A stretch of DNA of 33,510 nt from Rhodobiaceae bacterium (lineage in GTDB: Bacteria; Pseudomonadota; Alphaproteobacteria; Parvibaculales; Parvibaculaceae), in NCBI GenBank assembly GCA_002715765.1, contig PAZY01000056.1:1-33510 (forward strand), read 5' to 3'. The translations under genes and the position numbers were made by a program. A model generated the notes under the pieces. It was not told where the DNA came from, made no database searches, and saw nothing but the letters and a program-made list of their open reading frames with translations. Shown here piece after piece: positions 6,335 to 28,315 of the stretch (the stretch's first letter is position 1; every line of letters begins with the position of its first letter).

Positions 6335-6380
6335 TTTTCTTCTTTTCTGGTTGCTTGGGCATTTTTCTTTTATCTAATAA

Positions 6381-6395: not shown

Positions 6396-6436
6396 ATAAA
6401 AATCCATATGTGCCAAACCTCCCTCCGTCATGATAA

Positions 6437-6451: not shown

Positions 6452-6474
6452 TTTTAGTTAAAGGGGTGTACGTT

Positions 6475-8877: not shown

Positions 8878-8903
8878 TGGATTTCAAGCGGAGTTGAGCA
8901 GGT

Positions 8904-10001: not shown

Positions 10002-12819
10002 AACGCGGATTAACCATCCTGATGAAATCTGCGCCGATGCAGAGCAATCCACGGTCGCACTGGCGCAAACCCCGGCTCTCCAGACCACCTGGCAGCGCCG
10101 ATGGAAAGTGTTCTCATCGGACAAGCGCGCAATCACGTCTGCGATGCTCTTGGCCGTCTTGGCTCTGGCCGCATTTGCCGCGCCGCTTCTGTCAAATGAT
10201 CGCCCGTTGATTTTGGTGATAGACGATCTTGTATATTTTCCGATAATCGAGAAAGTGCCGGATCACGTTGTTGGTGGTTATCTGCCGATCGAGGCGGACT
10301 TCACAGATCCGTCTGTGGTCATAAAGATAGAGAAGGAAGGGGGGGTGCTTTGGGCGCCCGTCCGGTACAGCTATAACACGGTCGACTTCCATACCTGGGG
10401 CAATCATCCGGCGGCGCCAACAGGCATACATCCTTTGGGAACTGACGACCAGGCACGTGATGTTGTGGCCCGTGTATTGTATGGCCTTCGGATCTCGCTG
10501 TGGTTTGGGTTGGCTCTCACCGCGATCACCGTCTCGCTGGGCATTGTCGCAGGGACAATCCAGGGCTATTTCGGCGGTCTTGTGGACCTGTTGTTCCAGC
10601 GCTTTATCGAGATATGGGAAAGCATGCCGCAGCTTTATGTGCTGATTATTGTGTCCAGTTTGCTGGTGCCCAGTTTTGCGAGCCTGCTCGTCCTGTTGAG
10701 CCTCTTTGGCTGGGTCGGTGTTGTCGGTGTTGTGCGTGCGGAAGTGTTGCGTGTCAGACAACTTGATTATGTCGCAGCAGCACGTGCCATGGGGCTTCCG
10801 TCGCACAAGGTTATGGTGCGACATGTCGTGCCAAATGCATTAGTGGCCGCTATGACCCTGTTGCCGTTCACATTGACGGGAAGCATCGTCTCTCTCACGA
10901 GCCTGGATTTTCTGGGCTTTGGCCTGCCCACGAATGCCCCTTCTTTGGGAGAGCTTTTGCAACAGGGGCGAAACAACCTGAATGCGCCCTGGCTGGGGTT
11001 CGCCGCGTTCAGTTCGCTGGCATTCCTGCTGACATTATTAGTCTTCGTGGGGGAGGGAGTGCGGGATGCGTTCGACCCTCGTCGATCTCGCAAGCGTATA
11101 CCCCGTCGGGGGAAGTTGGCGAAGCAGCGCCCGAAACGGCGGACACAGCACCAGCCTCCCTGTCGCTCGACCTGGAAGGATAAAACGCTCCTGAAGATTG
11201 ACAGGCTGACAATCACACCATCGGGGCACCCTGCGCAGAGGCTCGTGGATAGGGTAGGCTTGGAAATCGCCCCGGGGGAGATTGTCGGGCTTGTGGGCGA
11301 ATCCGGTTCAGGTAAATCATTGTCTGCCAGAAGCCTGCTCAATGTGTTGCCAGATGGCGTTCAGTTCGGCGATGAGGGCTGGATGGTTTTTGAAGGGCAT
11401 GGTTCGGCATTGGGTGATGTAGGACAGGCCCGCTTGCGGGGAAGAGAGATTGGTTTCGTCCCTCAGGAGCCTATGTCTGCGCTCAATCCCGTTCACACCG
11501 TGAAGCGGCAAATCAGGGAGGCCGTTCTTGTCGGGCATCCAGGGGCAGGCGAACGAGAAGTGGAAATGCGCATTTCCCAATTGCTGCATCAGGTCGGGCT
11601 TGATCATATGGTGCATCGCCTCAATGCATACCCGCATCAATTGTCAGGCGGGGAGCGGCAGCGTGTGGTCGTTGCAATCGCGATCGCCAACCACCCAAAA
11701 CTTCTTGTGGCAGATGAGCCGACAACAGCGCTTGATGTCGCTCTGCAGGTTCAAATTCTTGATCTCTTTAGTGCGCTCCGCCGGGACATGGGGATCGCCA
11801 TCCTTTTTGTATCTCATGATTTGGGCGCAGTTGCGGGACTGGCGGACCGGATCCTGGTTATGGACAAGGGGCGGATCGTCGAAGCGGGGCGTACCGACAA
11901 AGTGATGCGCCACCCGCAAAGTGTTCAGGGGCAGGAACTGGTGAAACACCTGAACCCTTCACCCCGAAAGGAAACAGTCGGCAAACGGGAACCCGCCAGG
12001 ACCGTCCTCAAGATAGAAGGGCTCTCCGTTGAATTTGGCGGGCCAGCGTGGGGGGTGTCCGGGCAGAACAGTTTTCACGCCGTAGACAATGTGTCTCTGT
12101 CGCTCTGTGCGGGCGAGACCTTGGGGCTGATCGGTGCCTCCGGTTCCGGCAAGACGAGTGTGGCGCGCGCTATCCTGAATATGTTGCCACACAAAGGTAA
12201 CATTGCGTTGCCGGGACTGGGTGAAGAGAGAAAGACGTCGGCGAAGCATCGCAGTTCGGTGGTGCAGATGGTTTCCCAGGACCCGTTCTCGTCCCTTTCA
12301 CCTCGTATGACCGTTGCACAAATCATTGCAGAGCCATTAGGGATTCATACCCCCTCTGTTTCCAGACATGAAAAGATGCGACTGGTAGGGAAAATGTTGG
12401 CCCAGGTGGGGTTAGGTTGGGATGTCGCACATCGGTATCCACACAAGTTCTCGGGCGGTCAACGACAGCGCATCGCCTTGGCAAGGGCCCTCATCGTTAA
12501 ACCGCAGATCGTGGTGCTCGACGAACCTACCTCCGCGCTGGATGTATCGGTTCAGGCAAGCATGCTGGACCTTCTGGTGGATCTGCAAAACAGAACGGGT
12601 GTTGCATATATCCTGATCACGCACGATTTTTCAGTCTTGGAAGCCATGGCAGACCGGATTGCCGTCATGCAGTCGGGAAAAATTGTTGAGACAGGCAAGC
12701 GTCAATCTCTGCTGTCCAACCCCGCTCACTCCTACACCCAAAGTTTGCTGAATGCATCACGCCGTCTGAGGGGCGAGAACCCCACACAATTTGATTACGG
12801 AGTTCACAAAGGAGAATGA
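9994..12819 (+). CDS. YejE permease fused to YejF double ATPase
   Basis: One uninterrupted frame of 941 residues. I start it at ATG 9994, which overlaps the YejB stop and has GAGAAG upstream; an earlier in-frame start inside yejB lacks support. Residues 1-about 365 are a YejE-type permease (helices plus EAA loop ARAMGLPSHKVMVRHVVPNA). A basic linker of about 40 residues follows. ATPase 1 has Walker A GESGSGKS (from residue 435), signature LSGGERQRV and Walker B LLVADEPTTALD. ATPase 2 has GASGSGKT (from 714), FSGGQRQR and IVVLDEPTSALD. All motifs look intact. In enterobacteria YejE and YejF are separate proteins, so the fusion is notable. It would supply both nucleotide sites for the YejB/YejE channel. 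Confidence 0.92.
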   Translation: MSETRINHPDEICADAEQSTVALAQTPALQTTWQRRWKVFSSDKRAITSAMLLAVLALAAFAAPLLSNDRPLILVIDDLVYFPIIEKVPDHVVGGYLPIEADFTDPSVVIKIEKEGGVLWAPVRYSYNTVDFHTWGNHPAAPTGIHPLGTDDQARDVVARVLYGLRISLWFGLALTAITVSLGIVAGTIQGYFGGLVDLLFQRFIEIWESMPQLYVLIIVSSLLVPSFASLLVLLSLFGWVGVVGVVRAEVLRVRQLDYVAAARAMGLPSHKVMVRHVVPNALVAAMTLLPFTLTGSIVSLTSLDFLGFGLPTNAPSLGELLQQGRNNLNAPWLGFAAFSSLAFLLTLLVFVGEGVRDAFDPRRSRKRIPRRGKLAKQRPKRRTQHQPPCRSTWKDKTLLKIDRLTITPSGHPAQRLVDRVGLEIAPGEIVGLVGESGSGKSLSARSLLNVLPDGVQFGDEGWMVFEGHGSALGDVGQARLRGREIGFVPQEPMSALNPVHTVKRQIREAVLVGHPGAGEREVEMRISQLLHQVGLDHMVHRLNAYPHQLSGGERQRVVVAIAIANHPKLLVADEPTTALDVALQVQILDLFSALRRDMGIAILFVSHDLGAVAGLADRILVMDKGRIVEAGRTDKVMRHPQSVQGQELVKHLNPSPRKETVGKREPARTVLKIEGLSVEFGGPAWGVSGQNSFHAVDNVSLSLCAGETLGLIGASGSGKTSVARAILNMLPHKGNIALPGLGEERKTSAKHRSSVVQMVSQDPFSSLSPRMTVAQIIAEPLGIHTPSVSRHEKMRLVGKMLAQVGLGWDVAHRYPHKFSGGQRQRIALARALIVKPQIVVLDEPTSALDVSVQASMLDLLVDLQNRTGVAYILITHDFSVLEAMADRIAVMQSGKIVETGKRQSLLSNPAHSYTQSLLNASRRLRGENPTQFDYGVHKGE

Positions 12820-12821
12820 CA

Positions 12822-13313
12822 ATGGCAGAACCACAAAAGAAAGACCTTCTGCAGGAGGTAACAGATGAAACACGGGCAGATGCAAGAAAGCTGATTGAAG
12901 GATCCCGGTCCGCATCGCTCGCAACACTCGATCCCGGGACCGGGCATCCGATGTGCAGTCGAACAGGCCTTGCAACTGATCAACAGGGGCGACCCGTTTT
13001 CCTGATGTCTTCTCTTTCCGGTCATCACGCTGCACTTGTGAGCGATCCCCGCGCCAGCATGTTGATCGGGGAGCCTGGCTCAGGAGACCCGCTGGCATAC
13101 GAACGCATCAGCATCTCGGGTGTCGCGGCACAGGTGGTTGATGAAACAGATCGGGCCGCAGTGCGCGAGGCCTATTTGGCCAAACATCCGAAGTCAAAAC
13201 TGTATATCGACTTCAAGGATTTTACATTCTGGCGTCTCAATCCGGAACGTGCAGGATACGTGGTGGGATTTGGTAAGGCCTACTTGTTGAGCGCATCCGA
13301 CCTCGATATTTGA
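12822..13313 (+). CDS. HugZ-like split-barrel haem-utilisation/PNPOx-family protein
   Basis: 163 residues. AAAGGAG (12808-12814) lies 7 bp before ATG 12822; an earlier ATG at 12816 overlaps the previous stop (ATGA) but is only 1 bp from the ribosome site, so 12822 is preferred. The sequence is a pyridoxamine-phosphate-oxidase-like split barrel: RSASLATLDPGTGHPMCSR, VFLMSSLSGHHAALVSDPRAS, YERISISGVAA and the C-terminal GYVVGFGKAYLL. Known: HugZ proteins of this fold bind haem and some open the porphyrin ring to release iron. The longer relatives add a C-terminal DUF2470 domain, absent here. As the last gene of the receptor/Yej operon it fits a role in cytoplasmic haem breakdown, but a flavin oxidoreductase role cannot be excluded. 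Confidence 0.85.
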   Translation: MAEPQKKDLLQEVTDETRADARKLIEGSRSASLATLDPGTGHPMCSRTGLATDQQGRPVFLMSSLSGHHAALVSDPRASMLIGEPGSGDPLAYERISISGVAAQVVDETDRAAVREAYLAKHPKSKLYIDFKDFTFWRLNPERAGYVVGFGKAYLLSASDLDI

Positions 13314-13675
13314 GCGTCCGGCACAAGTGGCGACAGGCCGGGCCGCGGGGGCGGGGCATGCCTTCCCGTGGCTCACCCATGGTTTTCTCTTCACCCTCCG
13401 CCCGGTTTGTCGCCCGATTTTTAGCCCCGATCTGCGATCGTCCGGCGTCTCCTTGATCCATACCCAGGCTGACAGTACGGAAGAGACAGGTATCAGTTTT
13501 ACTCATGATGTGATTAGGATCATTCATTTGATACATGTCAATTTCTCTGGCTTCATTTTGTGGCAGCTGACCTGCTAGCGGGATGCCTATTGCCCGGTGG
13601 TAAAGACACAAATGGCTTGAGTTCAGCCATGACAAAAAACAGGTCGTAAGCGTCAGCTGAAGTTCGGGGGGACTT
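13314..13675. other. 362-bp intergenic region before the fucosidase gene
   Basis: No gene is evident. It is GC-rich after the HugZ-like stop, then turns AT-rich around 13490-13560, where the conserved 38-bp element lies. About 140 bp of untranslated leader follows to the TTG start. I found no convincing terminator or -10/-35 pair. Confidence 0.6.
13502..13539 (+). promoter_or_regulatory. 38-bp element shared with the LysR/coq4-like promoter (copy 1)
   Basis: This stretch matches the reverse complement of 21331-21368 at 31 of 38 positions. The conserved cores are CTCATG, GATTAGGA and CATTCATTTGAT. Such length and identity between two intergenic sites, in otherwise unrelated sequence, indicate a regulator-binding site, most simply for the LysR protein encoded at 21377. 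Confidence 0.75.
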
Positions 13676-15160
13676 TTGTTGTTGCAGTCTTTGACATCAA
13701 CCATTCAACCGACGCTGGAAAGCCTCGGTTCTCGGGTCGCGCCATCATGGTTTGATGAAGCGAAATTCGGCATCTTCATTCATTGGGGCGTGTTCGCCAT
13801 CCCTGCTTTTGGCGAACATTTTGGCGATATCAGTGCTGTTTTCAAACATGACTATGACAGGGCGGTCGTGCGCTCTCCCTATTCGGAATGGTATCAGAAC
13901 GCGATCCGCGTTCCAGGCACGGCCGCACATACGTTTCACCAGGAAACGTTCAACGGCGCGCCCTATACGGATTTCAAGCAACCATTTGTCGATGGGCTGA
14001 AACATTGGGATCCAGATGCCTGGGCCGAAACCTTCAAGAAATCGGGTGCGCGTTACGTTGTGCTGGTGACCAAACACCATGACGGATTCTGTCTGTGGCC
14101 AAGCGCGGTACATAACCCCCATCTGGACCATTGGTGTACTGAGCGGGACATTGTGGGAGAGCTTGCTGCCGCTGTCAGAAGGGCGGGCCTGAAGTTTGGT
14201 GTATATTATTCCGGCGGCATTGACTGGAGCTTCAACAAAAAGCCCGTGTCAACCTTGGGCGACTTTGTGGGTTCGGTTCCCGGTGGGAATTACGGTGCTT
14301 ACGCGACGGCACAGGTGCGTGAACTGATAGAACGCTATGAGCCCTCCGTCCTTTGGAATGATATTGCCTGGCCAACAAATCTCTCTTCGTTGTTGGAGCT
14401 GTTTGCAAGCTACTACAATCGGGTGCCGGATGGGGTCGTCAATGACCGTTGGTTGCATGCGACATGGTACATGAAGGCATTGAGGACAAAACTGGGGCGA
14501 CGGGTCTTCGATGCCCTTGCCAAGCGTGCCCTAGCCAAGTCGGCAGGCAATCAGAAGGGGGTTGTGCCACCTCCCATCCCGCATAGCGATTTTCGGACGC
14601 CGGAGTACACGGTTTTTCCGGATATTCAGGCAAAAAAATGGGAAGCCACAAGGGGAATGAGCCATTCATTCGGCTTCAATCGCAATGATAAGCCGGATGA
14701 TTATGAGCCCGCTCATGCGTTGCTGCACGGTTTCATCGATGCTGTATCAAAAAATGGAAACCTCCTGCTTAACGTGGGACCTCGCGGTGTCGACGGGGGC
14801 ATCCCGGTTGAGCAACTGGATCGTCTCAACTGTTTCGGGGATTGGTTGTCGAAAAATGGGCACGCCATTTATGGAACACGTCCCTGGAAGATATCAGACG
14901 CCAGGACAGGCTGTGGGCTGGATGTACGCTTCACGACATCCGGCGGCGACTTACATGTCATTCTTCTGGGAACACCGTCGGCAGAAGAACTGGTTCTCAA
15001 AGATGTCATCTTGGCCGAAAAACCGGGACGTATGAATGACGGTGCGCCTGTCACGGTAGAGCGCCGCGGGAATGACAGTGTTCTGCGGCTGCATAGCGTC
15101 TTGCCGGATGCCGCTGCACACGCGCTGACCTTCGCGCTGCCTGACCCTGACATGGACTAG
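13676..15160 (+). CDS. GH29 alpha-L-fucosidase, cytoplasmic
   Basis: 494 residues from a TTG start. An in-frame stop at 13658-13660 leaves only TTG codons (13676, 13679, 13682) as near starts, behind a G-run at 13666-13671. It has the GH29 hallmarks: WFDEAKFGIFIHWGVF, VTKHHDGFCLW (His134-His135-Asp136), LWNDIAWP with the expected nucleophile Asp229, and KWEATRGMSHSFGFN with Glu323 as a candidate acid/base. Family role: releases L-fucose from glycans or glycosides by a retaining mechanism. No signal peptide is seen, so I infer cytoplasmic action on an imported substrate. A basic segment of about 40 residues (259-300) sits between NDRW and PHSDFRTPEY, which normally lie close together. First gene of a set with DUF1302, DUF1329 and a GPH symporter. 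Other deoxysugars are possible substrates. Confidence 0.9.
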   Translation: MLLQSLTSTIQPTLESLGSRVAPSWFDEAKFGIFIHWGVFAIPAFGEHFGDISAVFKHDYDRAVVRSPYSEWYQNAIRVPGTAAHTFHQETFNGAPYTDFKQPFVDGLKHWDPDAWAETFKKSGARYVVLVTKHHDGFCLWPSAVHNPHLDHWCTERDIVGELAAAVRRAGLKFGVYYSGGIDWSFNKKPVSTLGDFVGSVPGGNYGAYATAQVRELIERYEPSVLWNDIAWPTNLSSLLELFASYYNRVPDGVVNDRWLHATWYMKALRTKLGRRVFDALAKRALAKSAGNQKGVVPPPIPHSDFRTPEYTVFPDIQAKKWEATRGMSHSFGFNRNDKPDDYEPAHALLHGFIDAVSKNGNLLLNVGPRGVDGGIPVEQLDRLNCFGDWLSKNGHAIYGTRPWKISDARTGCGLDVRFTTSGGDLHVILLGTPSAEELVLKDVILAEKPGRMNDGAPVTVERRGNDSVLRLHSVLPDAAAHALTFALPDPDMD

Positions 15161-15264
15161 ACATGAAAATGGACGAGACATGAAAGAAGTTAAAGCCAAG
15201 AAGTAAATACTGGGGGGAGAGGCGTTAAGGCGCTTCTTTGACAACATTCAAGGGAGGAAGTTGG

Positions 15265-16974
15265 ATGGTCTGTAACTGGGGTTCGATGAAAGGGCGGCTT
15301 CTGGCCTGTGCCAGTACAATGTTGCTCGGAGGGGCGATGGCGGGTGCCGCAACCGCCGCCGAATTTGAGTGGGGGGATGTAACGGTCGATATTGATAGCA
15401 CCGTGAACATTGGCGTGGGCATTCGGACAGTCAATCCCGATGCGCGGTATATCGCCGCTTCCAACGGGGGCACAAATAGAAGTGTCGCGGCGGAAAACGT
15501 GGACGATGGAAACCAGAACTTCCTTCGTGGAGACATTTACTCCGCGTCGACCCGCGCCATCCATGATGTTGAAATATCACTGGGTAACGTGGGGGCCTTT
15601 ACCCGGTTCAGCTACTTCTACGACGCCGTTAAGAACGATGCAGACAGCACGCGGCGTACCGATCTCAGCGACGCCGCCCGTCGTCGGGCAGGGCGGGGCA
15701 TTGATGTGCTGGACGCATACGTCTATGGCGATTTTGAAGTGATGGACATGCCGCTGGCTGTAAGGCTTGGCAACCAGGCCATCAATTGGGGGGAGGCGCT
15801 TTATCGCTCAGGTGGTATCGCGCAAACCAATGCGATTGACGTAATCAAGCTGGAAACACCAGGGGCAGAGGTTCGCGAAGCCTTTCTCCCATCTCCCATG
15901 GCGTGGGCAAGCATTGCGATCACACCGGAATTGAGCCTGGAGGGGTATTACCAGTTTCAATGGCGCCAAAGCCGCCTTGTGCCAGTTGGTACGTTCCTGT
16001 CGGGGGAGGATCTTTTTGGCCCCGGCGCGGAAGGGTTCTTCCTTGCCGGTGATCCCGGTGGCACGGGCCTGCCGGCATCGGCATTGTTGGCCGCGCCCAC
16101 GGGCGTGCGCAAAGTAGGGGATGAACGTCCGAACGATCAGGGGCAATGGGGTGTCGCAGCGCGATATTATGCAGAAGGCATTTCATCGGAGTTTGGGCTC
16201 TATTATCTGAACTATCACGCCAAGACCCCTTATGTCGGTGCAAGCGCTTCCAGAGTGGTTCTGGTGCCAGCTTTTCCACCATTTATTCCGTTTCCAATTA
16301 CAGCGGACCTCACAGACAATTATTTTGCGTCTTTCCCGGAGGATATTGACCTCTACGGCGCAACGGCCACTTTCCCGCTGGGGGACATCTCGATTGGTGT
16401 TGAAGCAAGTTATCAACCTGATTATCCGGTACCGATCGACGGCCTGAGCGCGGCGACAACGGCCGTAGGCCTTGCCGGCGGGGGAGCGGCGCGAAGCTAC
16501 GGGTTCGCGCGAATGGACCGACTGAGCACGATTGCCAACGCGCATGTTTCCATTGGGCCCGGCATGCCTGTCTTTGGTGCAATCACAGAGGCAATGGGTG
16601 CCGATGCAATTGACATTGTCGGGGAAGCGGGGCTGGTCGACTTCCAGGGAGCCTTGCCGACGGGGGCAAGCGGAGACAATTTCTCGTGGGGCTACAATCT
16701 CACCGCGAGCGCGCCATTCAGCCGGGCATTCGGCACGGATATCACGCTTACACCGAGTGTTGACTTCCGTCATGACGTGAACGGTCTGTCTATCGACCGT
16801 GCCGTGACCAGCAATTATGTCGAGAACAGACGTGGGATTACGCTGGGCCTGGAGGCAAGTTACGAGGCGGACCTGGCTGCGAAGATTGCCTACACAAACA
16901 ATATGGGTGGCGGAACGAATTCGGCGAAGTCCGATCGTGACTACGTCACATTCACTGTCAGTTACGCATTTTGA
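15265..16974 (+). CDS. DUF1302 outer-membrane barrel protein
   Basis: 569 residues from ATG 15265, preceded at 7 bp by GGGAGG; the frame is open to a TTG at 15238 without a ribosome site. The signal peptide ends at ATAA-EF. The mature protein opens with FEWGDVTVDIDSTVNIGVGIR and contains YVYGDFEVMDMPLAVRLGNQAINWGEAL, the DUF1302 core, followed by alternating beta strands and a C-terminal VSYAF with the terminal Phe of outer-membrane barrels. Known: DUF1302 proteins are usually paired with DUF1329 and occur in clusters for uptake or breakdown of hydrophobic compounds. Inference: it passes the fucosidase substrate, or its hydrophobic part, through the outer membrane. About 100 bp separate it from the fucosidase gene and 39 bp from the DUF1329 gene. 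Confidence 0.88.
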   Translation: MVCNWGSMKGRLLACASTMLLGGAMAGAATAAEFEWGDVTVDIDSTVNIGVGIRTVNPDARYIAASNGGTNRSVAAENVDDGNQNFLRGDIYSASTRAIHDVEISLGNVGAFTRFSYFYDAVKNDADSTRRTDLSDAARRRAGRGIDVLDAYVYGDFEVMDMPLAVRLGNQAINWGEALYRSGGIAQTNAIDVIKLETPGAEVREAFLPSPMAWASIAITPELSLEGYYQFQWRQSRLVPVGTFLSGEDLFGPGAEGFFLAGDPGGTGLPASALLAAPTGVRKVGDERPNDQGQWGVAARYYAEGISSEFGLYYLNYHAKTPYVGASASRVVLVPAFPPFIPFPITADLTDNYFASFPEDIDLYGATATFPLGDISIGVEASYQPDYPVPIDGLSAATTAVGLAGGGAARSYGFARMDRLSTIANAHVSIGPGMPVFGAITEAMGADAIDIVGEAGLVDFQGALPTGASGDNFSWGYNLTASAPFSRAFGTDITLTPSVDFRHDVNGLSIDRAVTSNYVENRRGITLGLEASYEADLAAKIAYTNNMGGGTNSAKSDRDYVTFTVSYAF

Positions 16975-17013
16975 GCGCAAGGCGCCGCGTTATTCCGTTG
17001 AAGGAGTAGGACT

Positions 17014-18363
17014 ATGTTGAAGAAACTTACGTCTCTGAAAAAAGCAACAGCGTGCACTTTGTCTCTTGCGATGTTGACACTGGGTACGCCAGCGTTCGCC
17101 GGGCTGGGGGAAAACCTGACCCCCATAGGGGCAGAGAAAGCCGGTAATCGTGAAGGGACCATACCGGCATGGACAGGGGGACTGACACAGATGCCGGCAG
17201 GATGGTCGCAAGGCGACCTTCGTCCCAACCCGTTTGCCGACGACGCACGGCTCTTTACCATTGATGCCGGTAACGCGGATCAATACAGCAAACAGCTCAC
17301 ACCGGGGCAACTTGCGTTGATCAACGCCTACGATGGCTATCGTATGGATGTCTATCCGTCCCGCAGAACCTGTGCCTACCCGCAAAGAATTTACGACCGC
17401 ACAGCCGCCAATGTGGATGAAGCGGCAATGAGCGCGGACGGCGCTTTGACAGCCGGCTATGGCGGGGTTCTGTTTCCCGTTCCGGAGAATGGCTGGGAGG
17501 TGATGATGAACCACCGAACGGCATTCCGCGGTGTTGGAAACCGCCAGATGATAACGACAGTCGTTAAACAGTCCGATGGTGGAAACAAAATATACCGGGG
17601 TGAAACCCAGTCCTTTGTGCCCATGTATGCACCGGGAACCCAGTCGTTTGACGACACAAACGGCTATATGAGCAAATTTGTCTACACGGCGGAGTTTCCG
17701 GTCAAGTCTGCGGGAACCATGGGGCTGGTTCATGAGTTCTTCAACCAGACGCGCGAAAGCTGGGCTTATCTTCCCGGACTGCGCCGCGTTCGCAAGGCCC
17801 CTACAATCGCGTATGACAATCCGGCAGCGGGGCAGGATGGACTGCGAACCTTCGACCAGACCGGCATGTTTAACGGAGATGGTGACAGGTACAATTGGGA
17901 CCTGATGGGAAAACAGGAACTCTATATCGGTTACAACGCCTGGAAATTTCGCGATCCCGCTCTGAGCATTGAAGATATCGTGGGTGAGAAATATGCGTCA
18001 CGAGATCTGGCGCGTTATGAACTGCACCGCGTCTGGAAGGTGCAGGCAATGCTGAAACCGTCTGTCCGAAATATCTTCACACGGCGCGATTTCTACATTG
18101 ATGAGGATAGCTGGAACATTGTTCAGGCAGACCTTTATGACGCGCGGGGAGAGCTCTGGCGTGTACAGGAAGCACATATGCTGGTGGCGGCTGAGCTTCC
18201 CGCTTGTGTGGGGGCCGCAGGTTTTTACTACGACCTGGAAGCCCAGCTCTATGTTGCAGACAATTTGGTGATCGGTAATGACGAAAGCAATTACTCGCTG
18301 GGTGTCGAGATAGACGGCGCACACTTTACGCCTGCCTATCTAAGACGCAGCGGCAGACGCTAA
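17014..18363 (+). CDS. DUF1329 periplasmic protein
   Basis: 449 residues with a clear signal peptide (LKKATACTLSLAML, cut near AFA-GL). Family landmarks: LGENLTPIGAEKAGNREGTIPAWTGG near the N-terminus of the mature protein, FPVPENGWEVMMNHR, and SWAYLPGLRRVRKAPTIAYDNP in the second half. An AAGGAG site stands before the ATG. Known: DUF1329 is the regular partner of DUF1302, and its predicted fold is of the LolA/LolB lipid-carrier type as I recall it. Inference: it moves a hydrophobic ligand between the outer-membrane barrel and the inner membrane. No RND transporter gene, the usual third partner, is present here; a GPH symporter takes the place after it. A hairpin follows the stop codon. Confidence 0.88.
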   Translation: MLKKLTSLKKATACTLSLAMLTLGTPAFAGLGENLTPIGAEKAGNREGTIPAWTGGLTQMPAGWSQGDLRPNPFADDARLFTIDAGNADQYSKQLTPGQLALINAYDGYRMDVYPSRRTCAYPQRIYDRTAANVDEAAMSADGALTAGYGGVLFPVPENGWEVMMNHRTAFRGVGNRQMITTVVKQSDGGNKIYRGETQSFVPMYAPGTQSFDDTNGYMSKFVYTAEFPVKSAGTMGLVHEFFNQTRESWAYLPGLRRVRKAPTIAYDNPAAGQDGLRTFDQTGMFNGDGDRYNWDLMGKQELYIGYNAWKFRDPALSIEDIVGEKYASRDLARYELHRVWKVQAMLKPSVRNIFTRRDFYIDEDSWNIVQADLYDARGELWRVQEAHMLVAAELPACVGAAGFYYDLEAQLYVADNLVIGNDESNYSLGVEIDGAHFTPAYLRRSGRR

Positions 18364-18386
18364 ACCATTCTCAATCCCTCCTCTAA

Positions 18387-18414
18387 GCCGGTCGCGGCCA
18401 ACGCTGCGACCGGC
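18387..18414 (+). terminator. hairpin after the DUF1329 gene
   Basis: GCCGGTCGC and GCGACCGGC form a perfect 9-bp stem around a 10-base loop, followed by TCATTT. The short T-run suggests an incomplete terminator, or a point where expression of the symporter gene is reduced. Confidence 0.6.
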
Positions 18415-18443
18415 TCATTTGTGCCGCCAAAGGAAAAAAACAC

Positions 18444-19877
18444 ATGCAGACCGGCGCCCTCTCTTCGCGGACAAGAGTGAATTTTGGTATCGGTGCCATT
18501 GCCTTCGGCGTCAAGGATACCGGGTTCAGTTATTTTCTGTTGATCTACTATCAGCAGGTATTAGGGCTTGATGCAGCCTATGCGAGCCTCGCTCTCTCGC
18601 TCGCGATTGTTGTCGACGCCTTTACCGATGTCCTGATCGGCTATGGATCCGATAATCTGAGAAGCCGCTGGGGGCGGCGACATCCGCTCATGTATGCGGC
18701 GATCCTGCCGACCGTGGCAGCCCTTTATTTTCTCTGGAACCCGCCGGACTGGATCGGGGCCGACGAGCTGTTTTTCTATCTGATGGCCATGGCCATACTG
18801 GTGCGAACCTGCGTGACCTTCTTCGAAGTGCCGAACGCGGCTCTGAGCGCGGAACTCACTCATGATTATGATGAGCGAACAAAACTGATGGCATATCGGT
18901 TTGCATTTGGTCTTTGGGGAGGGCTGGGGGTGATGTTTCTGGCCTATACCTTCCTTCTTCAACCAGATGCACAGACCGAGGTCGGAACGCTCAGTCAGTC
19001 GGGGTACGAGCAATATGGTGTGATGGCTGCCGCCGTCATGCTGGTGGCGATGCTTTGGTCGGCAATCGGAACACATGATCGGATCCCCTATCTCCCCCGC
19101 GCACAAGGCCAGTCCTCAAAGGGGGCATGGTCCGTCTTTCACCAGATACGGCAATCATTGGCGAACCGTTCGTTTCTCGCGGTCTTTGTCAGTCGAATAT
19201 TCGGGGGCGCAGCCGCAGGCATTGCCACCAATCTCAGTATCTATTTTGCGACCTATTTCTGGATGCTGACATCTGCGGAGATCGGCCTTTTTCCGCTGAT
19301 GGCGCTCATATCCGTCACGCTTGCCTCCCTGATGGCACCAGCCATTTCCCGCCGATACAACAAAAAAAGTGTAGCGCTCAGTGCTGTCTTCTTCCTGATA
19401 TTCTGGACCCCGCTCCCATTGTGCCTTCGGTTGTTGGATTTGTTTCCCGCAAACGGTCATGACTTGCTGTTGCCATTATTGTTGCTGCACGGCCTGGTGG
19501 ACGGGATCGCGGCCGTCATCTCCGGCATTTTGCTGGGCGCTATGATTGCAGACATTGTGGAGGATGCGGAGAATGAGACCGGTCGCCGCAACGAAGGATT
19601 GTTCTTCGCCGCCAATGGTTTCGCCGGGAAGATGGTGTCTGGCGTGGGTATTCTGGTTGCCGGGCTTATTCTGTCCGCAGTGGAGTTTCCAACACAGGTA
19701 GCGCCCGGAGAGGTTGAGCTGGACAAGACCGAAAAGCTTGCGACGACCTACATTCCCATTATCGGTGTGCTTTACCTTCTGGGTTGGGTGGCGCTGTGCT
19801 TCTACCGGATAGATCGTACCAGGCATGAAACGACACTGCAGAACTTGCGCGACAAAAAAGAACGCCCCGCCGGGTAA
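18444..19877 (+). CDS. GPH-family sugar:cation symporter (MFS)
   Basis: 477 residues, about 12 membrane helices. The glycoside-pentoside-hexuronide family marks are FGVKDTGFSYFLLIYYQQVLGL at the start (helix 1-2) and YGSDNLRSRWGRRHPLM after helix 2, the typical basic loop of MelB relatives. The second half begins with the matching NRSFLAVFVSRIFGG repeat. Known: the family moves sugars, glycosides and some amphipathic compounds with Na+ or H+. Inference: it imports the glycoside cut by the cytoplasmic fucosidase, since that enzyme lacks a signal peptide. A hairpin separates it from DUF1329, and a two-way terminator overlaps its stop codon. Members transporting lipids (MFSD2-like) make a hydrophobic substrate conceivable. 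Confidence 0.88.
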   Translation: MQTGALSSRTRVNFGIGAIAFGVKDTGFSYFLLIYYQQVLGLDAAYASLALSLAIVVDAFTDVLIGYGSDNLRSRWGRRHPLMYAAILPTVAALYFLWNPPDWIGADELFFYLMAMAILVRTCVTFFEVPNAALSAELTHDYDERTKLMAYRFAFGLWGGLGVMFLAYTFLLQPDAQTEVGTLSQSGYEQYGVMAAAVMLVAMLWSAIGTHDRIPYLPRAQGQSSKGAWSVFHQIRQSLANRSFLAVFVSRIFGGAAAGIATNLSIYFATYFWMLTSAEIGLFPLMALISVTLASLMAPAISRRYNKKSVALSAVFFLIFWTPLPLCLRLLDLFPANGHDLLLPLLLLHGLVDGIAAVISGILLGAMIADIVEDAENETGRRNEGLFFAANGFAGKMVSGVGILVAGLILSAVEFPTQVAPGEVELDKTEKLATTYIPIIGVLYLLGWVALCFYRIDRTRHETTLQNLRDKKERPAG

Positions 19878-19891
19878 GACGGCAGGGCGTT
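19861..19891. terminator. bidirectional terminator between symporter and coq4-like genes
   Basis: AACGCCCCGCCG and CGGCAGGGCGTT pair at 11 of 12 positions around a 7-base loop. On the minus strand the stem is followed by CTTTTTT, a good terminator for the coq4-like gene; on the plus strand only TTTAATC follows. The left arm lies inside the last codons of the symporter gene. Confidence 0.8.
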
Positions 19892-19914
19892 TAATCACAA
19901 ACAGGTAAATCAGG

Positions 19915-21279
19915 TCAGTCTGCGGCAACACTCGGAAATTCTGTCGCGCCGGATGCAAAAGGTGAGATCTGATAAGTCTGCCGAATGGTGCTGATCTGCT
20001 CACCCCAGAGGCTTTCCCAGTCAACCAGAATGAGCGGCCTGGTTTCGCGCCCATGCTTCCAGCCGGAAAAAGACAGTTCCAGAATGGGGGCAAGGCCTGC
20101 GGGGAAATAGAGTGTGGAGATCAAACTGACCGCGGCGATAAACCAGGCGGAATAAGGCTGGCCGATCTGCGCAAGCTGAAACCCGGAAATCCCGATCTCG
20201 TCTTCGCCGATTTGCTTATATCCGGCTACAAGGTGAAAAACATCGTGGAGCTGGAGGATCCGTCTGTTCATCCATTCGACAGGCGGCATATCCGGTTGCG
20301 CAGCGCCAAAAAGACTTGCTGGGTCGAGCACTTCAACATCGAAATTATTGTCAGTGATCAGGCGGTAGAATGTGTGGCCAAGCGATCCTTCCGGCATGTC
20401 GCGCAGGGTTTCAATCTTCACCGTTTGAGGAATCGGCGTGGATGTAATCTCTTTCAGTCCTTCGAAGGAAAGCACCATGCGTTCAACCGCATCGGAATAG
20501 GCGGCATCGAACCCGTTCCCGAAAGCGGCCACCGTTGAGGTGATCTGATAAGGGTCAGTAGCTTTCTCCGGTGCGTTGATGAGAGCCCAGAGATGCTCGG
20601 GGAACCCGTCAGACAAGGAAGTGGCCTTTAATGACTGTGAGGGCAGGGGTGCACAGCCGAGCGGTCGGGTGTCGGGTATGTCGAGACGAAGGTGGGTTCG
20701 CGCAGTCTCCACCGGCATGTCGAGAAGCCCGTGCCAATCAACCTCAAGAAAACTTGGAAGGCGAGCACCGTCTTGCCAGCCACAAGTAAGCGCATCGTAA
20801 ACAGGCTTCATTGCCTCCGGATCGGGAAATGCAACGCGACCCAGCCATGCTGTCAACGCCAGTGCACTCGCTTTGTTGGGTGCTTGTTGAGCGATAAAAG
20901 CATGCAACGAAAGGTCACCCGACGGCGTGCGCGGATAGTTCAAAAGGGCGCGCCAAAGTTCGCCGACAAGTGCAATATGGCGGAGCAGGGAGGCCGTCGG
21001 CTCATGTGGCTCTATTTCACCTGTCTTCTGATAAAATGAAGACACCATGTCGGACACGTGGCACAGCGCGGCACCAACGCTTCCCCGCGCGAAAGGCCTC
21101 TCCAGTTGAGCCTTGTCAATGGGTGTGAAACCAGCCTGCGCGCTGAGGGCCTGATATTGAGGCGTAACATTTGTTCCGTGTAGCGAGAGGGCCGTAAAAA
21201 GCGCCTCAACTGATTGGGTTTGGCCAAGCGGTGTTTTGAAGCTGGCCTCAAAGCAGGTTCTGATTTCCGGGTGGATCAT
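19915..21279 (-). CDS. two-domain Coq4-like metalloprotein
   Basis: 454 residues, about twice the usual Coq4 length. Residues from about 225 on form the Coq4 domain (PF05019). They show LRDMPEGSLGHTFYRLI and then the metal site H-D-x2-H-x11-E complete as His345, Asp346, His349 and Glu361, followed by GFQLAQIGQPYSAW. Residues 1-about 220 match nothing I recognise; they are soluble-looking, with AALCHVSDMVSSFYQKTGE as a conspicuous stretch. Known: Coq4 acts in ubiquinone synthesis, reported as replacing the C1 carboxyl of the ring by hydroxyl. No other ubiquinone gene is near. It shares a divergent promoter and the 38-bp element with the LysR gene and converges on the symporter gene. Inference: ring modification of the imported aglycone. 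Confidence 0.82.
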   Translation of the reverse strand: MIHPEIRTCFEASFKTPLGQTQSVEALFTALSLHGTNVTPQYQALSAQAGFTPIDKAQLERPFARGSVGAALCHVSDMVSSFYQKTGEIEPHEPTASLLRHIALVGELWRALLNYPRTPSGDLSLHAFIAQQAPNKASALALTAWLGRVAFPDPEAMKPVYDALTCGWQDGARLPSFLEVDWHGLLDMPVETARTHLRLDIPDTRPLGCAPLPSQSLKATSLSDGFPEHLWALINAPEKATDPYQITSTVAAFGNGFDAAYSDAVERMVLSFEGLKEITSTPIPQTVKIETLRDMPEGSLGHTFYRLITDNNFDVEVLDPASLFGAAQPDMPPVEWMNRRILQLHDVFHLVAGYKQIGEDEIGISGFQLAQIGQPYSAWFIAAVSLISTLYFPAGLAPILELSFSGWKHGRETRPLILVDWESLWGEQISTIRQTYQISPFASGATEFPSVAAD

Positions 21280-21330
21280 TGTCTTTCCTATGCGCGCAAT
21301 TTCTTGTGGCTATAGGTGGCCAGACGTTAT

Positions 21331-21368
21331 GATATGAATCAAATGAATGTTCCTAATCTTTGCATGAG
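21331..21368 (-). promoter_or_regulatory. 38-bp element in the LysR/coq4-like promoter (copy 2)
   Basis: Inverted copy of the element at 13502-13539 (31/38 identical). It ends 8 bp before the LysR ATG, overlapping its GAGGG ribosome site, and lies 52 bp upstream of the coq4-like start. This position suits a LysR-type regulator that represses itself while controlling the divergent gene. Confidence 0.75.
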
Positions 21369-21376
21369 GGTAGTTT

Positions 21377-22321
21377 ATGTACCGGGAAGGTCCTGCAAAA
21401 CCGCTCAACTTGAATCTCCTCTGGTCACTTAATCTCTTGCTGATTGAGCGTAATGTCACTTCCGCGGCTGATCGGGCGGGTATTACCCAATCGGCAATGA
21501 GCCACACACTCAAACAGCTAAGGGCCTATTTTCAGGATGAGCTGCTGGTGAAAGGAGAGCGGGGTTTTGTCCTCACACCCAAGGCCGAGAAAATTTCCGG
21601 GCGATTGCAGCAGGGCTTGGAGATTGTTGGTCAGGCGATCGACGCAGAAACGGAGTTCGTGCCCGAAACATCGAACCGGCTGTTCACAATCGCGACCTCC
21701 GATTTCCTTTCGGCTCTCGTCATGCCATCGCTCGCTGCATTGACGGCAGAAAGAGCACCCAACACGCGGTTTCGCTTTACATCTATTCCCGAACATCTGG
21801 ACAGGGCGTTGGAAACAGGCCGGGTGGATCTGGTGATCGGAAGTTCCATCGAAAGCCGCCTGGCAAAGCGCAAGCGTCTTTTCGCTGACCAGTTCGTCTG
21901 TGTTGTTCGGCAAGACCATCCCGCCCTGCAAAAGCCGTTCACAAAATCACGTTATCTGGAAATGAAGCATATTGATCTGACCAGCGAGCCCGGCGTGACA
22001 TCGGCGATCATGAAAGGCCTGGGTGCCCGGGCAGGGGATCGGACGGTTGCAACGGAATCGCCCTTCACGCTCTCGGCGCCGCTGGTGGTCTCATTTTCTC
22101 ATCTCGTGCTGACAGCCCCTCGTTTGCTAACCTATGGGTTCTCAGATGTATACCCCGTGAGCGTGTTGGTACCGCCGTTCAAGATGCCGCCCCTCTCCGT
22201 AGAGGCTGCCTGGCATCCGCGTATGGAGGCAGACCCGACACATATATGGTTGCGGGATATTGTCACTGAATTGGGCGACCTGATGCAGGTCACCGCAGAC
22301 GGTATCGAGATCACAGGCTAG
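21377..22321 (+). CDS. LysR-type transcriptional regulator
   Basis: 314 residues. The winged helix-turn-helix covers about residues 8-68, with NLNLLWSLNLLLIERNVTSAADRAG and ITQSAMSHTLKQLRAYFQDELLVK, a standard LysR recognition region. A substrate-binding domain of the LysR type follows, with FTIATSDFLSALVMPSL at its start and the second half from about residue 165. The ATG has GAGGG 6 bp upstream. It is transcribed away from the coq4-like gene and the shared 38-bp element sits between them. Known: LysR proteins usually activate divergent or nearby genes on binding a pathway compound. Inference: it senses the glycoside or a product of it and controls both the coq4-like gene and the fucosidase operon 8 kb away. 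Confidence 0.92.
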   Translation: MYREGPAKPLNLNLLWSLNLLLIERNVTSAADRAGITQSAMSHTLKQLRAYFQDELLVKGERGFVLTPKAEKISGRLQQGLEIVGQAIDAETEFVPETSNRLFTIATSDFLSALVMPSLAALTAERAPNTRFRFTSIPEHLDRALETGRVDLVIGSSIESRLAKRKRLFADQFVCVVRQDHPALQKPFTKSRYLEMKHIDLTSEPGVTSAIMKGLGARAGDRTVATESPFTLSAPLVVSFSHLVLTAPRLLTYGFSDVYPVSVLVPPFKMPPLSVEAAWHPRMEADPTHIWLRDIVTELGDLMQVTADGIEITG

Positions 22322-22395
22322 ACACCGATCTGGTGCGGCGTAGAACGCGGGTCAAGGAGCGGGCCTTCCTCTGGAACAGTTTTCTCGCAGGGCGC

Positions 22396-23400
22396 TTACA
22401 CAGCGGGCTGTGGCAATCCTTCATCCCCCACGAGTGGCTTTCCCGTCCCGAAGGCGGCAACCGCCCGTGCCGTACGCTCCGCCGGGGTCTCGTTGAGGTT
22501 GATCCATTCCTGTGCCTTGCGCACATTGATCCCAAGCCCCTGATTGTTGGCAATCTGGATGTTCAGGCCGGGGCGGGCATTCAGCTCAAGCAGCAGCGGG
22601 CCACGCTGGGCATCGAGAATAATATCACACCCCAGATAGCCAAGTCCGGTCATCTCGAAGCAGGACGCAGCCATGTCGAGCTGCTTTCTCCATTGTGGAA
22701 TGTGGAGCCCGCCAAACTCGGTCAGAGTGTCCGGATGTTCACTCACCGGGTGGTTGAACTGAACCCCTGTTGTCATCACACCGGTCGCGATATCAATACC
22801 AACGCCGACAGCACCCTGATGCAAATTGGCACGCCCTTGAGATTGTGAGGTGGGAAGGCGGATCATGGCCATGATCGGATAACCCTGCATCACAACGATG
22901 CGGACATCCGGCAGTCCTTCCCAGGCAATAGGGTCGAAAAACGGGTGGGGTTTTACCAGTTCCTCAATCATTGCCGTGTCGCGCGTTCCGCCAAGGGAAT
23001 AAAGGCCGGAAATGATATTGGAAATATGGTGCAGCACGTCTGCCCGTTCGATCAGCCGACCATTTGACTTCTGGTAGCGAACGACCCCTTTTCGGTCCAC
23101 CTTCTGCTTGGTCAGCACCAGCACACCCTTGCCACCGCTGCCCCGGCCGGGCTTGATCACAAAGCCGTTGTCACGAGGCACCTGGGTTAGAATTTCTTCG
23201 GCAGAATGTTGCTCCTCAATCACCGCCAGCATTTGAGGGACCGGAATACCGGCCTCTTGTGCCAGAGCTTTTGTTTTCAGCTTATTATCCACCAACGGGT
23301 AGAGTTCGCGCCGGTTGAGGTTCTGAATAAGCGAAATATTGCGCTGATTGAGTCCGACAACACCGTGTTTCTTCAAAGTGCGATAACTGGCGAGAAACAT
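22396..23400 (-). CDS. RimK-related alpha-L-glutamate ligase-like ATP-grasp protein
   Basis: 334 residues. ATP-grasp features: NKLKTKALAQEAGIPVPQM as the pre-ATP-grasp region, FVIKPGRGSGGKGVLVL as the ATP-binding loop, DVRIVVMQGYPIMAMIRLP, and GPLLLELNARPGLNIQIAN, which carries the metal-binding Glu and Asn. This matches the alpha-L-glutamate ligase-related family (TIGR02291). Known: ATP-grasp ligases join an amino acid or peptide to a carboxylate using ATP. The start codon follows the stop of the 7TM gene by one base, so the two are co-translated. The acceptor is unknown; Iyer, Aravind and colleagues predicted that this gene set makes or modifies a peptide. It is the last gene of the operon and converges on the LysR gene. 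Confidence 0.88.
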   Translation of the reverse strand: MFLASYRTLKKHGVVGLNQRNISLIQNLNRRELYPLVDNKLKTKALAQEAGIPVPQMLAVIEEQHSAEEILTQVPRDNGFVIKPGRGSGGKGVLVLTKQKVDRKGVVRYQKSNGRLIERADVLHHISNIISGLYSLGGTRDTAMIEELVKPHPFFDPIAWEGLPDVRIVVMQGYPIMAMIRLPTSQSQGRANLHQGAVGVGIDIATGVMTTGVQFNHPVSEHPDTLTEFGGLHIPQWRKQLDMAASCFEMTGLGYLGCDIILDAQRGPLLLELNARPGLNIQIANNQGLGINVRKAQEWINLNETPAERTARAVAAFGTGKPLVGDEGLPQPAV

Positions 23401-23401
23401 A

Positions 23402-24928
23402 TCAGTCTCCCAAAGACCGGAAACGCCGCAGCTCCATCAGACGGTAGCCTGTATAGCGTCCCAGAAGGATCATGCAGGCCAGAACCACCAGCAGCAACTC
23501 GGGGAAGTAGAACATGAGGTACTGGATCTGTGGTTGCATGATCACCAGATAGATGAGGCTTGCAGCAAACAGCGTACCCAGACCTTCGGAGAACACGGCG
23601 CGTGGTCCTTCTTCTTCCCAGACAATCGACATGCGTTCGATGATCCAGGCCAGAATGACAATCGGGAAGAGCGCGACCGACAGCCCGATCTGGAAACCAG
23701 CGCCGTGGCTGGCAAGGCTGAGCACCATAATCATCATGATGACGATACAAACAACCGCCGCAATGCGCGGCACTACCAGCAGCTGAAGCTTTTCAAGATA
23801 AAGACGCATGGTCAGGCCGATACCAACGACACCGACAAAAAGCAGCACGCCCGCAAGAAACCCGGTTTCCCGGAAGGAAAGAGCAACAAGAGCAGGCGAG
23901 AAAGTCCCAGTTGTGCTGAGGCCGACAATATTACGCAGGATCACAATCACCAATGCGCCCAGCGGTACAAGAAGCAGCAACCGATAGACGTTTTGCAGAT
24001 CAACCGGCAGATTGGTCAGCGAAATAGTCTCCAATATATTGGTTGCCATCTCCCGTTCGCGGGCAAGCACATAATCAGCATCATAGATGTTGGAGGTCAC
24101 CGAGAAGGTGAGACGCGGACGGTAAACATGCTGCGTGTCCAGAACGTCGGTATTGCCAACCGACCAGACGAAAAAGTTTCCGGGCAGGCCTTGTTCACCG
24201 GTTTGCGGGTTGAAAGTCATCCATGACGTGCCGTTGTGCACCTGAAGCAGCGGCTCCAGCCGTTGATAGGTCCGGCTCTTGTCCAGCGGGAGACCAAGGA
24301 GAACACGGGCGGGGATGCGGGCCCCGGCGAGAATGTAGACGGTGCGTTCCGTCTTCTCGATGACATTCCGCGTGCCATCCATAAGGAATTTCGTGTCTTC
24401 GCGCATTGGTGTCTGGAAAAGACGGGCAAGCAATTGCACCGTAAAGGTCTGGATATCTGCAGACTGCGCACGCGCTTCGTCCAGCAGGGCCAGCGCGGTA
24501 TAGCGGAAATGCTCCGGGTATTCGGGAACAGCCGGAGGCAACACATCACGTTGCGCGAAAGCGGCTTCGCCAGGCCGGGTCACAACGACAGCCCGATAGA
24601 GCAGGGATTGCTCCCCGCGCGCGCGGCGCTTGCTCCACAAAAGAGTTCGGCTGTCCGTGTTGGTCGCTTCCGCAGTGCCATAACCGGGGCTGGCGAATGT
24701 CTCGTCCAGGACGCGGAAATTGGGCGTCTGATTGGGCAGAACAAGCTGCACATTGGGTGGAAGGTTAGCATCTACCCGAAAGTCGATCTGTGCGTCGATG
24801 GTCCAGGCGGTAACACTGTCATTCGGCACCAGTGGAATATAAAGTTCCAGGTGCTTGTAGAGAAATACACCAATCCCGATAGCACAAAGCAGCGCCGAGA
24901 TAGCATAAATCTTGATCTGGTTACCCAT
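23402..24928 (-). CDS. inactive transglutaminase-like / 7TM membrane protein
   Basis: 508 residues from the MGNQIK start, which overlaps the protease stop by 8 bp; a start 21 codons earlier is possible but lies deep in the protease gene. It has one N-terminal membrane helix (IYAISALLCAIGIGVFLY). A periplasmic domain of about 280 residues follows, of the transglutaminase-like type that lacks the catalytic Cys (Transglut_i_TM). About seven membrane helices come next, from LLLLVPLGALVIVIL to the FPELLLVVLACMILL end (7TM_transglut). Known: found with a retropepsin-like protease and a RimK-like ligase in many proteobacteria, function unsettled. Inference: a membrane sensor or carrier that holds the peptide handled by its two partners. 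Confidence 0.88.
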   Translation of the reverse strand: MGNQIKIYAISALLCAIGIGVFLYKHLELYIPLVPNDSVTAWTIDAQIDFRVDANLPPNVQLVLPNQTPNFRVLDETFASPGYGTAEATNTDSRTLLWSKRRARGEQSLLYRAVVVTRPGEAAFAQRDVLPPAVPEYPEHFRYTALALLDEARAQSADIQTFTVQLLARLFQTPMREDTKFLMDGTRNVIEKTERTVYILAGARIPARVLLGLPLDKSRTYQRLEPLLQVHNGTSWMTFNPQTGEQGLPGNFFVWSVGNTDVLDTQHVYRPRLTFSVTSNIYDADYVLAREREMATNILETISLTNLPVDLQNVYRLLLLVPLGALVIVILRNIVGLSTTGTFSPALVALSFRETGFLAGVLLFVGVVGIGLTMRLYLEKLQLLVVPRIAAVVCIVIMMIMVLSLASHGAGFQIGLSVALFPIVILAWIIERMSIVWEEEGPRAVFSEGLGTLFAASLIYLVIMQPQIQYLMFYFPELLLVVLACMILLGRYTGYRLMELRRFRSLGD

Positions 24929-25454
24929 TGGAGGCGTCCCCGCAGTTCGGCTCAGTGATGAATGTTTTACCGGAATGGACAAGGGCGACATCTTTTAGAA
25001 AACGGCGCCCCAGCAGCATCGGGTAGTTCAGATGGCTTCGGTCCGCAAGATTTACCTGCGTTTTGTAAATCTGCCCGTTAAAGCAGACCTCCATGTCCAC
25101 CACATAGCGGTTGTCATACTCATCTGTTCCCCGTTTGATGAGAACAGAGCGGCGCACCGGCTTTTCAAGGTGCAGTTCTTCGCCATTCTCATCGCCCGGC
25201 ACCGTGAAACTGACCCATCGCCGCCCGTCACGCTCTGTCATTTCGACATTGGTGGCATAGATGGACGAGGTTTTGGCCCCGGTATCAAGCCGCGCAATCA
25301 ACAGGCGGTCAAAAGAGGGCAAGGTGACATGTTCAACCCAACCGGCCACAACGGTTTCAACATCCTTCTCCTGTGCGGAGGCAGAGGTGGAAAATGGGGG
25401 GAAAGCAAGGGCAAAAAAAGCCGTTGCGAAAAAGAATGCGCGCGCGTGTTGCAT
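24921..25454 (-). CDS. retropepsin-like (ATP-dependent zinc) protease, secreted
   Basis: 177 residues with a signal peptide (FFFATAFFALAFPPF, cut near ASA-QE). The core carries ARLDTGAKTSSI, the Asp-Thr-Gly motif of retropepsin-like aspartic proteases, then RRSVLIKRG and YPMLLGRRFLKD, as in the PF05618 family. That family is named 'ATP-dependent zinc protease' although the fold points to aspartic chemistry. It is the first gene of a tight three-gene operon (8-bp overlap, then 1-bp gap). Family context predicts that it works in the periplasm on a peptide made or modified by the ATP-grasp partner. The 133-bp region upstream holds a TCAATTGTG/TCAATTGTA direct repeat at 25545-25562. Confidence 0.88.
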   Translation of the reverse strand: MQHARAFFFATAFFALAFPPFSTSASAQEKDVETVVAGWVEHVTLPSFDRLLIARLDTGAKTSSIYATNVEMTERDGRRWVSFTVPGDENGEELHLEKPVRRSVLIKRGTDEYDNRYVVDMEVCFNGQIYKTQVNLADRSHLNYPMLLGRRFLKDVALVHSGKTFITEPNCGDASNG

Positions 25455-26694: not shown

Positions 26695-26758
26695 GATCTC
26701 ACCCGTTAAAACCGGCAGCGTACAAAACAGTGCCAGAAAACATTAGAAGGAACCATCA

Positions 26759-27550: not shown

Positions 27551-27595
27551 GTCAGTCTGTGTCCCATTAGTGAGTGTACCTGATAGGGGTGCGCA

Positions 27596-28228: not shown

Positions 28229-28251
28229 GGGCGCAGTCTCACCTGTCATTC

Positions 28252-28268
28252 CTTAACAGCTTGTTAAG
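28252..28268. promoter_or_regulatory. perfect palindrome between divergent glycan genes
   Basis: CTTAACA-GCT-TGTTAAG is a perfect 7-bp inverted repeat around three bases, midway between the WbqC-like and glycosyltransferase starts. TATACAAT, a good -10 for the rightward gene, follows directly. It looks like an operator serving both directions. Confidence 0.5.
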
Positions 28269-28315
28269 TATACAATCAGTAGCATTCCCGCCAAAAGCAG
28301 AGCAAGGAAACACAT

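Follow-up and report, generated by a model that had tools for sequence, protein, structure and literature searches.

A candidate uptake and deglycosylation module for fucosylated compounds, with a tandem Coq4-like protein, in a Rhodobiaceae bacterium

Gene clusters that combine a glycosidase with dedicated uptake functions are well exemplified by uidABC-uidR of E. coli, which is annotated to encode a glycosidase, a glucuronide:H+ symporter, an outer-membrane protein and a dedicated regulator. Two further protein families, DUF1302 and DUF1329, have as a pair been tied to growth on monoterpenes in Castellaniella and, in P. putida, to the use of Tween20, as far as excerpts of the respective papers show (PMC6394551, PMC10866462), and human COQ4 has recently been assigned the C1 oxidative decarboxylation, according to part of a review (PMC11495197). 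Here, we describe a locus in which a fucosidase, a DUF1302/DUF1329 pair, a symporter, a Coq4-like protein and a regulator are encoded side by side. It lies on a 33,510-nucleotide stretch of DNA (the window: contig PAZY01000056.1, positions 1 to 33,510, assembly GCA_002715765.1) from an alphaproteobacterium of the Rhodobiaceae.

The locus comprises six genes at 13676-22321, and each of the encoded proteins has a Pfam match over the cut-off in a scan of the window proteins, which bears out the earlier grouping of GH29, DUF1302, DUF1329, GPH, Coq4-like and LysR; that grouping had been given a start at 13314, and the coding part begins at 13676. Four genes are co-directional on the plus strand, in the order GH29 alpha-L-fucosidase (13676-15160; Alpha_L_fucos, 3.5e-82, 277 bits against a cut-off of 25.2; signal peptide not apparent by eye), DUF1302 protein, a probable outer-membrane beta-barrel (15238-16974; 4.2e-141, 472 bits), the adjacent DUF1329 protein, probably periplasmic and LolA-like (17014-18363; 2e-116, 390 bits), and a symporter (18444-19877; MFS_2, 2.9e-92, 309.9 bits against 27). 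The DUF1302 and DUF1329 proteins both have a signal peptide by eye, and their roles are assigned by precedent. As the symporter falls below the curated cut-off of the NCBIfam model TIGR00792 (gph; 150.2 against 231.35 bits), we refer to it as MFS_2/GPH-type. On the minus strand follows the gene for a tandem Coq4-like protein (19915-21279; Coq4, 2e-16, 60.4 bits against 22.9), divergent from a plus-strand lysR gene (21377-22321), whose product has helix-turn-helix and substrate domains in Pfam. Judged by family, with localisation judged by eye or family only, the locus encodes an outer-membrane protein, an inner-membrane symporter, a cytoplasmic glycosidase and a local regulator, i.e. a uid-like set.

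We consider it about as probable as its contrary that these genes form a self-contained module, on the plan of the uid system, that takes up and deglycosylates a fucosylated and probably amphipathic compound, and in which the Coq4-like protein would act on the aglycone and the LysR protein would exert control. By precedent, the DUF1302 and DUF1329 proteins would take the glycoside through the outer membrane and the periplasm, the MFS_2 symporter may carry it through the inner membrane, and the cytoplasmic GH29 enzyme would remove L-fucose. The Coq4-like metalloprotein might then act on the aglycone, perhaps, if one speculates on the analogy with COQ4, through an oxidative reaction at a phenol or at a carboxylate of a ring, and the LysR protein would switch both transcription units via a shared element.

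That element had originally been described as a 38-bp sequence joining the two halves of the locus; the repeat is real, yet the alike stretch measures 50 bp rather than 38. Copy 1 (13502-13551) precedes GH29, and copy 2 (21319-21368) lies between coq4-like and lysR, neither with a strand assigned; copy 1 and the reverse complement of copy 2 are identical at 38 of 50 positions, and the element has one and the same orientation with respect to the GH29 and coq4-like genes. Among 38-mers common to the two intergenic regions, the best has 31 of 38 identities, where the 15 Markov-shuffled pairs of a small control reach at most 23. When up to 3 mismatches are allowed, a search of the genome for a 25-bp core of the element gives four occurrences, all of them exact, namely at both window sites and at the same two sites on a second contig (C19), and a reversed-pattern control gave no match in the genome. 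Copy 1 holds TGATTAGGATCA (13511-13522) and TGATACATGTCA (13529-13540), and each copy contains a partly palindromic 12-mer (TGATACATGTCA or TGATTCATATCA); all three sequences we take to be candidate LysR-type boxes. The LysR protein is the probable reader of the element.

Contig C19 carries a second copy of the region: window positions 3547-22488 match G000:C19:1-18930 (G000 being the window genome) at 98.6% identity, so that at least 18.9 kb are present twice in the assembly, and 22488 is the point where contig C19 starts. Collinearity stops at 3547, near the gene for a large Ig/RTX-repeat protein (318-2969). Because the reported assembly contamination is 8.2%, we regard the second copy as coming from another strain within a mixed assembly, although it may instead be a segmental duplication. 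In each of the six genes counted, the copies differ by more synonymous than nonsynonymous changes (DUF1302 13:3, DUF1329 14:4, GPH 13:6, Coq4-like 12:3, LysR 8:0 and the nearby PNPOx gene 8:0; GH29 was omitted on account of an alignment gap). The element differs at 0 of 50 positions at either site, and the 97-base coq4-like/lysR intergenic region is wholly identical; the 362 bases upstream of GH29 show 25 differences, gap columns included.

The solved structure closest to the window GH29 protein is the T. maritima fucosidase, and D229 and E310 of the window protein, invariant in 13 rows (the window included), align with its residues 224 and 266, which we take to be the catalytic nucleophile (TmFuc D224) and the acid/base (E266). 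The predicted removal of L-fucose by the cytoplasmic enzyme is well supported, because it is indicated by the family, by the catalytic residues and by the L-fucose operons that hold GH29 in relatives. GH29 matches were found in 19 of the 61 genomes examined, window genome included, and 19 loci from 17 relatives were inspected (fragment matches in G047 were left out). DUF1302 adjoins GH29 in four of these 19 loci (L056, L057, L060 and L059, where the contig stops), and DUF1329 comes next in three; contig ends block the view of the GH29 neighbours in L058 and L062. In L056, from the window's genus, the trio is part of an operon with FAH, SDR, a rhaM mutarotase, two enolase-type dehydratase-like genes, a lactonase-type amidohydrolase, an aldo/keto reductase and IclR. 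By sequence, L057 holds these clusters too, and L098, a record of the same contig as L057, matches all eight. By family content this operon would encode a non-phosphorylating L-fucose route. The trio is found inside a complete L-fucose operon in two relatives, G006 and G009, and in L060 FAH is the only member of the L-fucose set seen beside it. Ten further proteins encoded near GH29 in relatives (seven in L065, two in L064, one in L062) gave seven Pfam matches, six of housekeeping type and one histidine kinase, with no hint of a substrate, and three no match. A plasmid search returned GH29 in 318 records, all below 60% identity, and distant Coq4 matches only, in 7 records. GH29 proteins 41-42% identical to that of the window are encoded on the Lokiarchaeal contigs L172, L173 and L177.

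The window genome lacks the four L-fucose catabolism markers searched for. An operon-type dehydratase is absent (the best MR_MLE match, in a 344-residue frame, scores 104 bits, against 216-223 bits for the G006 and G009 proteins), rhaM is absent, FucI is absent from the window genome as well as from the three relatives searched, and an operon-type FAH is likewise absent: the best FAH of the window genome is 38% identical, and the operon FAH is 71-77% identical in seven other genomes, which with the query's own G006 makes 8 of 23. These are absences of recognised genes within that search and do not prove that the organism is incapable of using fucose. Since these four markers are absent, the gain is more likely to lie in the aglycone than in fucose.

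In phmmer comparisons, the top-scoring solved structure for the window transporter is MFSD2A, a lysophosphatidylcholine symporter, with 75 bits against 37 for MelB; the transporters of L185 and L227 lean to MFSD2A too, and the control UidB clearly to MelB (129 against 63 bits). Likeness to MFSD2A was rejected as proof of a lipid substrate, as the Sphingopyxis transporter (L106) leans to MelB, and is kept as a hint only. By analogy, the substrate is probably hydrophobic, because of the precedents for the DUF1302/DUF1329 pair, in the excerpts of PMC6394551 and PMC10866462, and of the non-uniform structural hint for the transporter.

To our knowledge, the functions of the many bacterial relatives of COQ4 are largely open. 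In the window protein, hhalign aligns residues ~107-199 with the C-terminal Coq4 core (probability 97.5, E 5e-12), but this N-terminal half is without metal motif; the C-terminal domain carries the Coq4 metal motif HDxxHx11E (H345 to E361), which is present in 57 of 60 subfamily rows and in all 13 other Coq4-like rows. The subfamily members L254, L263 and L264 lack it. Solved relatives are 3msq and 6e12, and the Coq4-like protein of Sphingopyxis has a single domain. In a tree of 73 Coq4-like rows (L241 was dropped as too short, and the C19 copy represents the window protein), the window protein groups with L028/L029, L105/L106 and L185 at a Shimodaira-Hasegawa-like approximate likelihood ratio (SH-aLRT) of 99 and away from the 13 other Coq4-like rows, in a topology with long branches, which according to a warning of the program meet at the window row. 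The coq4-like gene of L028/L029 adjoins genes for a P450 and an acyl-CoA ligase; in G087 (L185) a tandem Coq4-like gene lies between two PhyH genes, near genes for a GPH-type transporter, a P450, a flavin monooxygenase and an SDR, with no GH29 in view. The genome context argues for a putative role other than ubiquinone synthesis, and another Coq4-like match in the window genome lies in a 288-residue frame. A single-protein search of the genome contigs with the Coq4-like protein found nothing, and an AlphaFold model of the tandem protein, built from a 3-row alignment, was not used (mean predicted local distance difference test score 39.9).

Subsets of the six families recur in several lineages. 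In a named-genome sample of 80 GH29 loci, GH29, a GPH-type and a Coq4-like gene lie within 10 kb in two, i.e. in a member of the Sphingomonadales (L105) and in Sphingopyxis granuli (L106), both of which have a TonB receptor in place of the window's DUF1302 and DUF1329 proteins; L113 has GH29, a TonB receptor and GPH together. With the L106 protein as query (E<=1e-15), Coq4-like proteins turned up in 4 of the 385 genomes from the class, in 4 of 398 of the phylum and in 49 of 398 of the order to which G217 belongs. For this order, 50 loci from 48 of the 49 genomes were inspected (L216-L264 and L186; G921 and a second, weak match in G995 were left out). In 12 of the 50, the Coq4-like gene closes an L-fucose gene set, immediately behind FAH; of these, ten have GH29, whole or as a fragment, in view and two end at a contig border first; in three of the 12 a further same-strand open frame follows, which makes 'last gene' uncertain. 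GPH-type genes occur near the Coq4-like gene in nine of the 50 loci, and three loci hold GPH, TetR, GH29, fucose genes and Coq4-like all together. As regards the co-occurrence on which the original prediction staked its case, subsets do recur near GH29 in other lineages, and the lack of conservation that it had named as grounds for dropping the idea was not observed; the full set of six, however, was seen in the window genome only.

The module reading has to be weighed against an ordinary scavenging of L-fucosides or fucosyl-oligosaccharides, in which the substrate would be small and water-soluble, fucose would be consumed by unrecognised enzymes, and the DUF1302/DUF1329 pair would stand in for a TonB receptor. 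We think this improbable, though deserving of serious consideration: GH29 does lie in the complete L-fucose operons of G006 and G009, GH29 proteins 45-46% identical to that of the window sit in L-fucose gene sets in G217's order, GPH-type carriers often transport sugars, and the Sphingopyxis carrier scores best to MelB, so that the leaning to MFSD2A is not uniform. Several other observations weigh against our own proposal, namely that a dehydratase of another type (IlvD/Edd) for L-fuconate, like the lactonase, lies outside the four markers searched for in the window genome; that DUF1302 adjoins GH29 within the window's own family only (among the 80 named loci in four, from the same relatives); and that DUF1302 is matched six times in the window genome, twice by the copies of this cluster, which makes the family alone unremarkable. 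What speaks for the proposed module over scavenging is the absence of those four markers, the hydrophobic substrates in the excerpted DUF1302/DUF1329 precedents, the lack of an obvious place for a Coq4-like gene in sugar use, and the absence of any further polysaccharide-degrading enzyme among the 19 window proteins in the Pfam scan. As to the nature of an aglycone, KshA, the 3-ketosteroid marker, has no match in the window genome and among 8 genomes was found in G087 only, which also counts against the proposal; a steroid substrate is not favoured for this reason, despite the KshA-like Rieske protein and P450 of L105. These are encoded at 18016-20287 of L105, less than 10 kb from GH29, where GPH and Coq4-like genes are also present.

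The role given to the Coq4-like protein is open to a different objection, namely that it is a hitchhiker with a lipid or quinone task of its own, the real unit being GH29, DUF1302, DUF1329 and GPH. In 38 of the 50 loci of G217's order the Coq4-like gene has no L-fucose gene set in view nearby, some contigs being short, and in the 12 fucose-linked loci the other genes already seem to make up a full L-fucose route, which argues for a role that does not depend on fucose; the Coq4-like rows of these 12 form one clade, so that this association is counted as one event and may be single. Moreover, in seven relatives of the window's family that have both genes (G007, G009, G013, G018, G021, G025 and G031) the stretches around Coq4-like are without GH29, which is on another contig or, in G007, more than 400 kb away, and the window gene itself is transcribed towards the GPH gene, not with it. 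Nevertheless, several separate linkages remain, i.e. the window, the sphingomonad pair, the GPH-adjacent group and the fucose-linked clade, so that links with GH29 or GPH are seen in the window's family, the Sphingomonadales, G217's order and G087. The shared element, in addition, ties the coq4-like promoter to that of GH29, and the excess of synonymous changes extends to the coq4-like gene; we accordingly hold the hitchhiker explanation to be unlikely. That independently acquired genes and a coincidental repeat came together by chance would fit the occurrence of the full set in a single genome, but is very improbable given a repeat that lies far above the shuffles and is confined to the two sites, and subsets that associate repeatedly in several lineages. 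Of the original prediction, the view of these genes as a module therefore stands, with recurring subsets and an element that joins its halves, whereas the hydrophobic substrate and the action of the Coq4-like protein on the aglycone are things we infer.

Carried further, the proposed module would suggest, tentatively and with less assurance than the module itself, that members of this Coq4-like subfamily, single or tandem, are catabolic enzymes that act oxidatively on aglycones derived from fucosylated, lipid-like natural products; the COQ4 fold would then have a role beyond coenzyme Q synthesis, and fucose would be removed only to reach the aglycone. That a Coq4-like subfamily is recurrently linked with a fucosidase and an uptake symporter points to a definite class of candidate substrates for it; if the reading is true, DUF1302/DUF1329 pairs would be glycoside importers and the bacterium would remove fucose without known means of consuming it. 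The component families are known, and the link between a Coq4-like protein and fucoside uptake was not met in the open-access literature searched: nothing was found there on a Coq4-like subfamily linked to fucoside uptake or L-fucose operons (papers on Coq4 and fucosidase being unrelated by title), on DUF1329 together with a fucosidase, on a gene cluster of a Coq4 family protein, on a saponin fucosidase in Sphingopyxis, or on alpha-L-fucosidase and L-fucose in Hyphomonadaceae.

Elsewhere in the window, 4502-13313 encodes an SBP_bac_5 protein, a TonB receptor, a permease, a 958-residue fusion of a permease with two ABC ATPases, and the PNPOx/CREG-like protein. The TonB receptor falls just below the cut-offs for hemin (315.8 against 316.85 bits) and hemoglobin (322.7 against 323.75 bits), and the region may be a cassette for the uptake of heme that includes a dipeptide-type transporter. 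An ATP-grasp ligase-like protein (rimK_rel_E_lig) is encoded at 22396-24991 beside a 7TM inactive-transglutaminase protein, which matches RloB far below the cut-off. The genes at 25588-29443, for a DegT aminotransferase, a TylF-like methyltransferase, WbqC and a glycosyltransferase, probably serve a surface polysaccharide.

In comparison with uid, the window locus encodes a fucosidase instead of a glucuronidase, a DUF1302/DUF1329 pair instead of a porin-family protein and a LysR protein instead of the UidR repressor; its transporter leans to MFSD2A where UidB leans to MelB, and the Coq4-like gene is extra. The L-fucose operon of G006/NORP32 is alike in GH29 (67% identical), DUF1302 (66%) and DUF1329 (67%), whereas the window genome is without that dehydratase, mutarotase and FAH and has GPH, Coq4-like and LysR in addition. 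AmeAB of Castellaniella and PP_0765/PP_0766 of P. putida belong to the same two families as the window pair, but in the available excerpts they are tied to resistance-nodulation-division (RND) or multidrug-type transporters and to monoterpene or Tween20 use, whereas the pair in the window accompanies a fucosidase and a symporter. With COQ4 of coenzyme Q synthesis, finally, the window protein shares the Pfam Coq4 domain and HDxxHx11E, and it differs in its tandem build with a degenerate N-terminal domain, in its apparently catabolic gene context and in its position in the tree, apart from the 13 other Coq4-like rows.

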